DNA from: a virus | Reading direction: 5' to 3' (one strand) | Virus record (IMG/VR): IMGVR_UViG_3300009370_001221 | Coordinates: 1 to 64,000 of that record | DNA length: 64,000 nt | Shown: positions 17,324 through 29,060 of the stretch, piece by piece | Layout of the letters: each line of letters starts with the position of its first letter | Position numbering within the stretch: the first letter of the stretch is position 1 | The notes under the pieces: model-generated | Databases searched by the model: none | What the model saw: only the letters and a program-made list of their open reading frames with translations | What the model was told of the DNA's origin: nothing | Program-made: the position numbers and the translations under genes

Positions 17324-17905
17324 TTGCTACCTAAATTGAATAACTTTTTCATTGACCCTGATATTTGCTTTGACGTGAGCAAATTACAGGATGCATTGCG
17401 CGAAGTTGATTCGCGAGTCGCAAGACAATCTCCTTTAGGCAAAAGAGACATCAATGCTATTTGTCTGACACAAATTCCCGGTGATCCAAACTCTATCACA
17501 GGTGGTAATGTAAGAGGATTATTTTGGACACGCCCAACAAGCAGTGGTGAAGAGGTCCAACGAGAAAATCCAATAGACGAATCCCAATATACTGAGTTTG
17601 TTAAACTATTTGAAGATACTTACTTCAAAGAAGTATACGATACACTTATTCCCAATTATAAATTAGGCAGAGTAAGATTGCTTTGGAAAATGCCACGCAC
17701 AACATTGAGTTGGCACAGGGATCCTGAACGCAGATTACACATACCTATCGTAACCAACCCAGGCGCACTAATGATTATTGATGATGAAGTAAAACATATG
17801 CCCGCAGATGGCAAAGTATGGATTACTGATAATACAAAATATCATAATGCGTTTAACGGAGGCGAGGAAGATCGCGTCCATTTAGTTGCTACAGTTATAG
17901 AATAA
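17324..17905 (+). CDS. Aspartyl/asparaginyl beta-hydroxylase-like protein
   Basis: 193 aa from TTG 17324; a second TTG at 17336 is as plausible, and there is no early ATG. The C-terminal half has LSWHRDPERRLHIPIVTN (H-x-D with the downstream R/H characteristic of Asp/Asn hydroxylases), then TKYHNAFNGGEEDRVHLVATV with the distal His and the Arg for 2-oxoglutarate. Likely Fe(II)-dependent hydroxylase, substrate unknown. Its stop is 1 nt from the hairpin that closes the converging tmRNA unit. Confidence 0.6.
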   Translation: MLPKLNNFFIDPDICFDVSKLQDALREVDSRVARQSPLGKRDINAICLTQIPGDPNSITGGNVRGLFWTRPTSSGEEVQRENPIDESQYTEFVKLFEDTYFKEVYDTLIPNYKLGRVRLLWKMPRTTLSWHRDPERRLHIPIVTNPGALMIIDDEVKHMPADGKVWITDNTKYHNAFNGGEEDRVHLVATVIE

Positions 17906-17906
17906 G

Positions 17907-17931
17907 GAAAGGCCCTAAACGGGCCCTTCCA
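17907..17931. other. GC-rich hairpin between the convergent hydroxylase gene and tmRNA
   Basis: Near-perfect inverted repeat with arms GGAAAGGCCC and GGGCCCTTCC. It marks the end of both convergent units. Neither side has a clean downstream U-run (the six Ts precede it on the minus strand), so it may be an RNA end or processing structure rather than a standard intrinsic terminator. Confidence 0.5.
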
Positions 17932-17984
17932 AAAAAGCAGATTGGGTAACAAGGTATGCTCTATACCCCGGAATACTGCCGTGA

Positions 17985-18023
17985 TTAAGCGGCTAATGCG
18001 TATTCGTAATAATCGTCGTTTGC
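17985..18023 (-). other. tmRNA proteolysis-tag reading frame
   Basis: From the resume codon GCA at 18023 the frame reads ANDDYYEYALAA then TAA at 17987-17985. The AND start and ALAA end are typical of tmRNA tags, and the ...LAA end is the ClpXP-type degron. The sequence upstream (AATAATT then GCAAACGACGA) matches the conserved resume region. Confidence 0.92.
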
Positions 18024-18114
18024 AATTATTTTAGTTTGCTGTTTTTTAACATGGAACTGCTCCCATGTGTCGTCCGTATATCGTCCTCACCCTGTCGAAG
18101 CCATGTCACCCCCG

Positions 18115-18258
18115 TCAAAAAAAGATTAAGTATACTATACCACCAATAATAATTATGTCGGCACAGATACTCCATGCGACATATATTTTAAACATATATT
18201 CTATAGCTTTCCTGAAAGGCCTTGGTAATGTTTTTATCTTGTTCCGGAGGAATCGCAT
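18115..18258 (-). CDS. Small single-span membrane protein encoded in the tmRNA spacer
   Basis: 47 aa. The N-terminus is basic (MRFLRNKIKTLPRPFRKA), then a hydrophobic span (about residues 24-47, with ICADIIIIGGIVYLIFF). AGGAGG lies 8 nt before the ATG, a very strong Shine-Dalgarno. The TGA stop (18117-18115) is 1 nt before the 5' end of the tmRNA coding RNA. It overlaps the upstream ORF 18188-18292 in another frame. Function unknown; context suggests translation and tmRNA maturation are entangled. Confidence 0.6.
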   Translation of the reverse strand: MRFLRNKIKTLPRPFRKAIEYMFKIYVAWSICADIIIIGGIVYLIFF

Positions 18259-18292
18259 CGTCGCTTCCTCCTATCAATGTATTATAGTTCAT
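18188..18292 (-). CDS. 34-aa ORF in the tmRNA spacer
   Basis: It encodes MNYNTLIGGSDD...QESYRIYV, soluble and mildly acidic. The start has AAAGGAGA at proper spacing, beginning right after the acceptor CCA at 18306. No family recognised. It could be a leader that couples translation to the membrane-peptide ORF inside it. Confidence 0.5.
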   Translation of the reverse strand: MNYNTLIGGSDDAIPPEQDKNITKAFQESYRIYV

Positions 18293-18372
18293 TTTAATCT
18301 CCTTTTGGTGGAGGTGGTGGGGATCGAACCCACGTCCAGAATGCATATTGTCTACATCATACGACAATAAAG

Positions 18373-18546
18373 TTACTTACTTATTTTCTTTTCTTCATAT
18401 AAAACATGTTTGCGTACAACTGGGTCATACTTTTTTAATTTAAGTTTATTGCCACCCATCTTTCTTTTATTAACGGTTGTGGTATAATAATGCCCGGTAC
18501 CAGCAGTTGATACTAATTTAATAATTGTAATATTTTTACTTGCCAT
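18373..18546 (-). CDS. rpmG: Ribosomal protein bL33
   Basis: 57 aa. [23 protein letters not shown] ... [22 protein letters not shown] matches bL33 along its whole length (KLVSSAGTGHFYTT.KNKR...KLELKK.DPVVR.HV.Y.E.K). It is the cysteine-free form. It would enter the 50S subunit near the E site. The start overlaps the preceding stop (TAATG) and the stop lies next to the acceptor piece of the tmRNA, so both share a transcript. Confidence 0.93.
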
Positions 18547-18890
18547 TACCATGCATCCTTAAATTGTGGTTTAGCGAAATTATCATTTTCTATAACATGT
18601 TCTTTTACTTCTTCTTTATCACCATAAGATATATTTTGCGGTGGCACATCTACAGAACTTCCTGTAGTATAAAATCTTGATGCTGTTTGTACATCATCAA
18701 AACTTTGTGATTTTTGTCCCATTGCTTTATCGAAAATGTCTTTATAGTCATTATAAATTTCCATATAGCTAGAAGGACCATATTTTTTCTCGGCCTCATC
18801 TGTGACAAACTTAACATACTCTGATGCTAAAGTCAAATCACCACCTGCTAATTTAAGACATTCTAATCTTATATGTGTTGAATCAATCAT
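18546..18890 (-). CDS. Protein of unknown function
   Basis: 114 aa. The first 65 residues look helical ([32 protein letters not shown]) and the rest looks disordered. The same kind of N-terminus is common in small phage proteins, without known function. Joined to the genes on both sides by 1-4 nt overlaps. Confidence 0.6.
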
Positions 18891-19083: not shown

Positions 19084-19386
19084 TTAATTATCTGCTTCTA
19101 TTTTTACTTGTAACGGGTAATTATTGTTACGAGATAGTACAGTGGTTTCAATACCTTTTTGTTCTGCTATTTCATACGGCAATACTGCTACTATAGCAAA
19201 CCCTTCTTGATGTATTTTATGTGTCAAATCTTGTGCGGCATCAATGGCATGCATAAAAATAGACATTAAACAATTTACAACAAAATCCATTGGTGTAACA
19301 TCATCATTAATAAAAACTACCTTATACAAAGGTGGTTCTTTTAACTTTAAATTTTCTTCTATTTTAGTTGCAGTATCTGACATCAT
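19084..19386 (-). CDS. clpS: ClpS adaptor
   Basis: 100 aa. LYKVVFINDDVTPMDFVVNCLMSIF carries the NDD.TPM motif that binds N-degrons, and LTHKIHQEG supplies the conserved His of the amino-acid pocket. The C-terminus (PLQVKIE) matches the ClpS end. ClpS delivers N-end-rule substrates to ClpAP and blocks ssrA-tagged substrates there, so its location 1 kb from the phage tmRNA is suggestive. A phage version could redirect host proteolysis (inference). Confidence 0.92.
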   Translation of the reverse strand: MMSDTATKIEENLKLKEPPLYKVVFINDDVTPMDFVVNCLMSIFMHAIDAAQDLTHKIHQEGFAIVAVLPYEIAEQKGIETTVLSRNNNYPLQVKIEADN

Positions 19387-28706: not shown

Positions 28707-28714
28707 TATTTATC
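28707..28714 (-). promoter_or_regulatory. Late promoter GATAAATA
   Basis: Minus octamer 26 bp before the start at 28680, overlapping the stop of the upstream nuclease gene. Confidence 0.45.
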
Positions 28715-29060
28715 TACTACCACCTGAATATTTAGTTGCAAAGCCATGTTCTACAAGGTAATTATTAAGATTTACTTCTTCTATCATAATTTCACCTAGT
28801 AATCTACCAAACTTACCTTTCTTATCCAAGTATGTTTTAATAACAACATTAGATCCTACTGGGCACATTTCTTGCACTTTTGCTTTAGCGGCGAGTCCTT
28901 TTTCTTTTTCTACTAAATCGCGTGTTCTACTTTCAGGGGCGTTGATACCTAATAAGCGAACTCGTTGCTTTTTAAGTATAATACTAAATCCTAAGTCAAT
29001 ATCAACATCTATTGTGTCACCATCTACAACACGATCTATTGTTGCAGGATACTCATACAT
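28710..29060 (-). CDS. Staphylococcal-nuclease-like (thermonuclease) protein
   Basis: 116 aa. VDGDTIDVDI (Asp ligands), RLLGINAPESR (catalytic Arg and Glu) and KGKFGRLLGEI (second Arg) match the SNase triad, with a slightly compact OB fold. There is no signal peptide, so it acts in the cytosol or within the virion. Degrades DNA or RNA using Ca2+. TAATG overlap with the small basic gene upstream. Confidence 0.9.
   Translation of the reverse strand: MYEYPATIDRVVDGDTIDVDIDLGFSIILKKQRVRLLGINAPESRTRDLVEKEKGLAAKAKVQEMCPVGSNVVIKTYLDKKGKFGRLLGEIMIEEVNLNNYLVEHGFATKYSGGSR

Follow-up and report, generated by a model that had tools for sequence, protein, structure and literature searches.

Permuted tmRNA genes encode the acceptor piece ahead of the coding piece, with an intervening spacer between the two. 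Here, we asked what it means that the spacer of one such viral gene is filled by two overlapping small ORFs: are these ORFs genes, and could the RNA that carries them serve both as an mRNA and as a tmRNA precursor? The locus lies in a window (the whole stretch of DNA that was analysed) of 64,000 nucleotides, positions 1 to 64,000 of IMG/VR virus record IMGVR_UViG_3300009370_001221, and its features are collected in the table.

Features of the permuted tmRNA locus and its surroundings (window positions)
Feature	Position	Strand	Basis
Intrinsic-terminator-like hairpin after coding piece	17906..17930	(-)	Sequence scan
tmRNA coding (mRNA-like) piece, starts GGGGGTG at 18113	17931..18113	(-)	Rfam; 3' end inferred from terminator
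Tag reading frame ANDDYYEYALAA + stop	17985..18023	(-)	Sequence + Rfam alignment
4-nt linker UGAC with ORF2 stop codon	18114..18117	(-)	Spacer comparison
Intervening spacer, 192 nt, two overlapping ORFs	18114..18305	(-)	Sequence
ORF2, 47-aa single-span membrane microprotein, 'WSICAD' family	18115..18258	(-)	Homologues, dN/dS, hydropathy
Closing stem, 3' strand TTAATCTTTTTT = last ORF2 codons (L-I-F-F)	18118..18129	(-)	Fold + covariation
ORF1, 34 aa, starts upstream of ORF2 and overlaps it, probably a translated leader	18188..18292	(-)	Frame constancy; sequence weakly conserved
ORF2 Shine-Dalgarno AGGAGG	18267..18272	(-)	Sequence
Closing stem, 5' strand AAAGGAGATTAA, includes first Shine-Dalgarno	18294..18305	(-)	Fold + covariation
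tmRNA acceptor (tRNA-like 3') piece, CCA end at 18306	18306..18366	(-)	RF04321 match + sequence
bL33 ribosomal protein gene	18373..18552	(-)	Pfam PF00471 E=1.7e-14
ClpS adaptor gene	19084..19386	(-)	Pfam PF02617 E=2.5e-24; same gene run as tmRNA

The preliminary description of this DNA had proposed a two-piece phage tmRNA. In agreement with that proposal, we found that the Rfam model tmRNA_permuted (RF04321) matches positions 18366-17985 with 119.7 bits, well above its cut-off of 47, and in the permuted order; the gene is present in a single copy in the 235-kb viral record. The anatomical details that had been listed were all recovered as well: the CCA end, the GGGGGTG start of the coding piece, an acceptor stem of 7 bp (GGGGGTG/CACCTCC) with G3.U70, a second pairing of the two pieces (CAGGGTG/CATTCTG) and the tag ANDDYYEYALAA, which ends in ALAA followed by a stop codon. 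The locus thus shares with known permuted tmRNAs (RF04321 and the alpha, beta and cyano models) the acceptor-before-coding order, G3.U70, the tag, the CCA and a score above the family cut-off. The covariance-model search that had been suggested with the alpha model did return a match, but to RF04321 and the beta model instead. The label 'alphaproteobacterial-type' is not specific here: of the older clade models, the one retained in the window is beta (RF01850, 99.6 bits), and the alpha model (RF01849) is not the best there, although alpha is the best model in most WSICAD relatives of the locus. From its sequence features, we conclude that the permuted phage tmRNA gene looks functional, and we predict that its two mature pieces would carry out SmpB-dependent trans-translation. 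ARAGORN misread the permuted gene, calling two overlapping tmRNAs with wrong tags at 17751-18845; long tmRNA spacers may lead to wholesale mis-annotation of this kind. Immediately around the gene, a few bases separate the bL33 stop codon from the acceptor piece that follows it, an order that is kept in L096, a locus from a different virus. The presence of clpS places genes for tagging and proteolysis together in one gene run.

Is a spacer with ORFs unusual? Two-piece tmRNAs have been reported in the T4-like marine phages Melnitz and Mosig, with no mention of the spacer (PMC9004378). Those phages resemble the loci studied here in having a permuted phage tmRNA, and similar genes surround several of our loci; the Mosig spacer, unlike that of the window, is a short hairpin without an ORF. 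The paper on a 2025 database of 97,179 tmRNA sequences mentions one tRNA-Ala and one repeat inside intervening sequences and nowhere uses the word 'ORF' (PMC11915505); unlike the window spacer, the intervening sequences of known permuted tmRNAs are described there without protein genes. A search of the open-access literature brought up no description of ORFs in the spacers of permuted tmRNAs, which within that literature upholds the earlier view that such ORFs depart from the known short, non-coding spacers. Similarly, no true case emerged when 84,980 cellular genomes were scanned for spacers of 92-151 nt with one pattern, which tests a single sequence form: the scan produced 14 matches, and those listed, judged by eye, were chance matches or one-piece genes. 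A protein gene is also nested in a tmRNA gene where a group I intron carries a homing-endonuclease gene (36 of 883 intron forms; PMC11915505). In that case the host is an intron; here the cargo lies between two separate RNAs, with no intron or splicing, and is mostly not an endonuclease.

The spacer of the window holds the two ORFs exactly where the preliminary description had placed them. To collect relatives of ORF2, we searched with a two-sequence alignment (window and L096), which gave 27 loci, and a pattern scan gave many more. In total, 58 distinct spacers of viral permuted tmRNAs encode the ORF2 family, and all 15 of the spacer-borne relatives tested are Rfam permuted tmRNAs. The family consensus is approximately KWM[FL]KAYI.WSICADI.L..GI.YL[IV]FF, with one sub-family ending in GYGKISF; because the sample was drawn in part with the pattern AAAAGGA...ATG and the motif IVYLIFF, these two elements are enriched in it by construction. 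In-frame conservation of ORF2 among relatives, on which the case for a protein-coding spacer had been staked beforehand, was clearly seen. The L096 spacer is equally long and keeps the 47-aa frame, with 31 of 47 residues identical to the window; differences between the two fall 13/10/25 on the three codon positions, and dN is 0.13 over the last 24 codons. Across the family the median dN/dS is 0.166 (43 sequences) or 0.107 (15 sequences). Hydropathy (2.24) supports the single membrane span that had been claimed for the protein: we found one hydrophobic span, preceded by a basic N-terminus. The position of the stop codon, 1 nt before the coding RNA, also proved to be a feature of the whole family, lying nearly always inside a 4-nt UGAN linker (58 distinct spacers). 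In most phage spacers this linker is UGAU, and it provides both the stop codon and the bases that precede the cut site.

Members of the family also occur outside tmRNA genes: no tmRNA was found at L228, L240, L246 or L247 (at L246, in a search for an intact gene). ORF2 has no significant Pfam or PHROG family, and the WSICAD family gave no tblastn match among isolate phages (50,697 phage records). For co-inheritance of the cassette with the tmRNA, we saw a weak correlation (r 0.10). In the spacers of L330, L356 and L235 (about 260 nt), an extra segment precedes the ORF1/ORF2 cassette, and in two of them it holds a further small multi-Cys ORF.

Could such ORFs have arisen by accident, in a spacer that is structured but encodes no protein? 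Short ORFs are indeed frequent in spacers of 80-100 nt, where we found them in 6 of 16 clusters against 3.7 expected from an interior shuffle. An accidental origin is nevertheless contradicted by the third-position excess, the low dN/dS and the in-frame indels, by the homologues outside tmRNA genes, and by the recognised domains that other spacers encode (an SNase-like nuclease in the 454-nt L101 spacer, PHROG E=1e-33; a domain matching phrog_4098 in L125, E=5e-11). For ORF2 and most of the long-spacer families, the selection on codons, the in-frame indels and the free-standing homologues refute this explanation, and we regard it as extremely improbable. On these comparisons, we conclude that ORF2 is a real gene.

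ORF1 presents a different picture. As a reading frame the predicted 34-aa ORF stood, since it occupies the same frame relative to ORF2 in 52 of the 58 distinct spacers; as a protein sequence it is hardly conserved, with 5 of 33 residues identical between the window and L096. Another small first ORF is present in 2 of the remaining spacers, and 4 lack ORF1 by the criterion used. The two starts lie 22, 25, 28, 31, 34, 37, 40 or 43 nt apart, each of these distances being 1 mod 3, and the ORF1 frame remains open into ORF2. When ORF2 was synonymously recoded and the leaders were shuffled, the joint probability of ORF1 over 14 loci was about 1e-10, a value that is overstated, as this naive null ignores relatedness. 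The free-standing loci L228 and L246 retain ORF1 too. An assessment of ORF1 as unconserved, based on two sequences, was overturned by the constant frame in 16 and then 58 sequences. In the 120-nt spacers of L256, L315 and L337, ORF1 is absent and ORF2 starts directly at the first, stem-located Shine-Dalgarno. Because the frame is constant, the sequence weakly conserved and the ORF absent from these three spacers, we conclude that ORF1 is probably a translated but replaceable leader, and we infer that its translation is coupled to that of ORF2.

The two ends of the spacer pair with each other over about 10 bp, and the pairing, which the preliminary description had not noted, covaries, joining the ORF1 Shine-Dalgarno to the last codons of ORF2. 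In the fold of the window, a 14-bp stem prolongs the acceptor stem (z -3.7). Across 15 coding spacer types from several gene families, we found that 94% of cells were paired when the first 10 nt were set against the nucleotides preceding the 4-nt linker, but only 47-65% when the ends were slid by 1-3 nt. Stem positions show compensatory exchange among AU, UA, GC and CG, and the pairing score was 9.4 for true ends against 3.7 for ends swapped between spacers. Within the WSICAD spacers, all ten stem positions are paired in 50 of 58 (mean 9.8 of 10 pairs); their 5' AAAGGAG pairs, often as G.U, with final codons rich in UUU and UUC. Comparison of the spacers thus establishes that the stem is conserved. 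The 38 other, non-coding spacers share it (88% paired against 33-49% when slid), and the stem therefore probably serves tmRNA processing in any case; that it also covers the Shine-Dalgarno could be incidental.

Protein cargo is not confined to the WSICAD family, a second point that had gone unnoted in the preliminary description. Among non-redundant spacers of at least 130 nt, 9 of 20 contain a spanning ATG ORF, against 0.2-0.4 expected from shuffles (73 spacer clusters). This test counts one-ORF spacers, so that the two-ORF type of the window is left out. All the spacer comparisons draw on metagenomic contigs, with cluster counts that ignore phylogeny and pattern sampling that favours CACCTCCACCA/GGGGGTG and AAAAGGA...ATG. 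Some ten further spacer types encode other products: a nuclease, other membrane microproteins (41 aa in L047/L159, 26-27 aa in L118/L098) and Cys-rich peptides. The 41-aa family had no convincing tblastn match in isolate phages. The L132 type (17 contigs, spacers of 133-134 nt) encodes a 40-aa peptide with CxC and CCxxC motifs that is under purifying selection, and its frame continues into the tmRNA coding piece; Pfam gave no support for reading this Cys4 peptide as a Bfd-like ferredoxin. In a further type, which encodes a WYYTENEW-type peptide (L005, L016, L017, L019, L070, L099, L141, L197 and L214), there is no closing stem, and a conserved open frame enters from the acceptor piece, crosses the spacer and continues into the coding piece, making it a possible dual-coding tmRNA. 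Together, these comparisons show that protein genes nested in a permuted tmRNA spacer, whether related to one another or quite different, recur in many marine viruses.

Such diversity is well explained if the genes are passive passengers, that is, if the spacer tolerates insertions and phages that are pressed to keep their genomes small place short genes in it, while the stem serves tmRNA processing alone, with no regulatory link. The cargo is unrelated from type to type (SNase, Cys4 peptide, several membrane microproteins, the phrog_4098-like domain), and non-coding spacers retain the same stem. Moreover, relatives carry some of these genes immediately ahead of the tmRNA: the 41-aa type at L012, the L179 type at L078 and SNase homologues at several related-phage loci, with another SNase homologue at window positions 28710-29060. 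These upstream homologues of three cargo types suggest that movement has occurred, and it seems that neighbour genes crossed the acceptor piece or the acceptor piece crossed them. Against a purely passive role, a Shine-Dalgarno-like 4-mer stands at the spacer start in 6 of 14 other coding spacers but in 1 of 38 non-coding ones, and the ORF1/ORF2 overlap is conserved in many lineages. This contrast and the conserved overlap suggest more than tolerance, at least for the WSICAD family; we consider passive carriage a serious alternative, yet a rather doubtful one.

Are the ORFs and the tmRNA pieces made as one RNA? Most WSICAD relatives have a promoter-like TTGAC-TATAAA at a fixed distance, ending 70 nt before the CCA, which makes it probable that transcription starts at the acceptor piece and that the ORFs are read from the tmRNA precursor. 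In the window, no clear promoter like that of the relatives was found, the promoter scan being at chance level; because of this, co-transcription of the acceptor piece, ORFs and coding piece rests there on gene order and the downstream terminator, from which we infer it. ORF2 would accordingly be translated from the tmRNA precursor in this sequence-based reconstruction.

We propose, as a probable though far from certain account, that the nested cassette and the tmRNA precursor belong to one transcript, in which translation and processing compete for one stem. The elements of this proposal that comparison of sequences supports are the tmRNA anatomy, coding selection, the conserved frame overlap, stem covariation and the stop in the linker; competition itself is predicted, and the mutual influence of translation and processing that the preliminary description had suggested would fit the anatomy. 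A single transcript comprising the acceptor piece, ORF1/ORF2 and the coding piece would be both the microprotein mRNA and the precursor of the two-piece tmRNA. The spacer-end stem would extend the tRNA-like acceptor stem, with the UGA stop of ORF2 in the linker at the 5' cut site. With the stem open, ribosomes would enter ORF1, and ORF2 would be read along with it; with the stem closed, the ribosome site would be hidden, and RNase P and 3' processing would free the tmRNA pieces. Conversely, a ribosome starting ORF1 or finishing at the UGA would upset the region around the acceptor stem, on which the maturation enzymes depend for recognition. Transcription reaches the Shine-Dalgarno about 170 nt earlier than the strand that pairs with it, and for this reason we propose that the RNA is translated for a few rounds before it matures into tmRNA, an order that would be followed molecule by molecule.

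The same anatomy invites comparison with toxin modules. The hok/mok mRNAs have an overlapping upstream ORF, a small membrane protein and a hidden upstream ribosome site, all of which have counterparts here (the overlap and pairing by comparison, the span by hydropathy). In type I toxins generally, structure hides an upstream ribosome site until processing (PMC11228461), and the cassette might be a module of this sort for a membrane toxin, with the tmRNA precursor providing the inhibitory fold, given that its small single-span protein follows an overlapping upstream ORF and that end-to-end pairing hides the ORF1 Shine-Dalgarno. The window cassette, however, lacks homology to hok/mok, its RNA doubles as a tmRNA precursor, and ORF2 has no significant Pfam or PHROG match that would link it to a known toxin. 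In addition, 3' trimming to free the ribosome site would destroy the end of ORF2. We judge a toxin module unlikely.

Competition for the stem could also be part of a broader scheme, which we put forward tentatively and would not call probable: a bifunctional RNA switch, widespread in marine phages, in which the precursor acts first as a microprotein mRNA and then as a two-piece tmRNA that could tag its own cargo. The trigger would be the end of ORF2 folding back onto the Shine-Dalgarno, upon which the precursor becomes the tmRNA. As maturation would leave the excised RNA ending in the stop codon of the cargo, the tmRNA could tag and limit its own nested protein. The system of PMC10107115 offers a parallel: an RNA cut in the linker would have the ORF2 stop codon at its very terminus, or no stop at all where the frame of the cargo continues into the coding piece. 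In contrast to that system, the cut here would be made by the tmRNA maturation enzymes, and the gene is nested in the tmRNA itself.

These findings show that protein genes can reside within a permuted structural RNA gene, in a segment regarded as discarded, and they add a phage family of membrane microproteins that is likely to escape standard annotation. They raise the testable question of how, in an infected cell, a single RNA can serve both translation and tmRNA maturation, and they may help to explain why the permuted form of tmRNA persists in phages.
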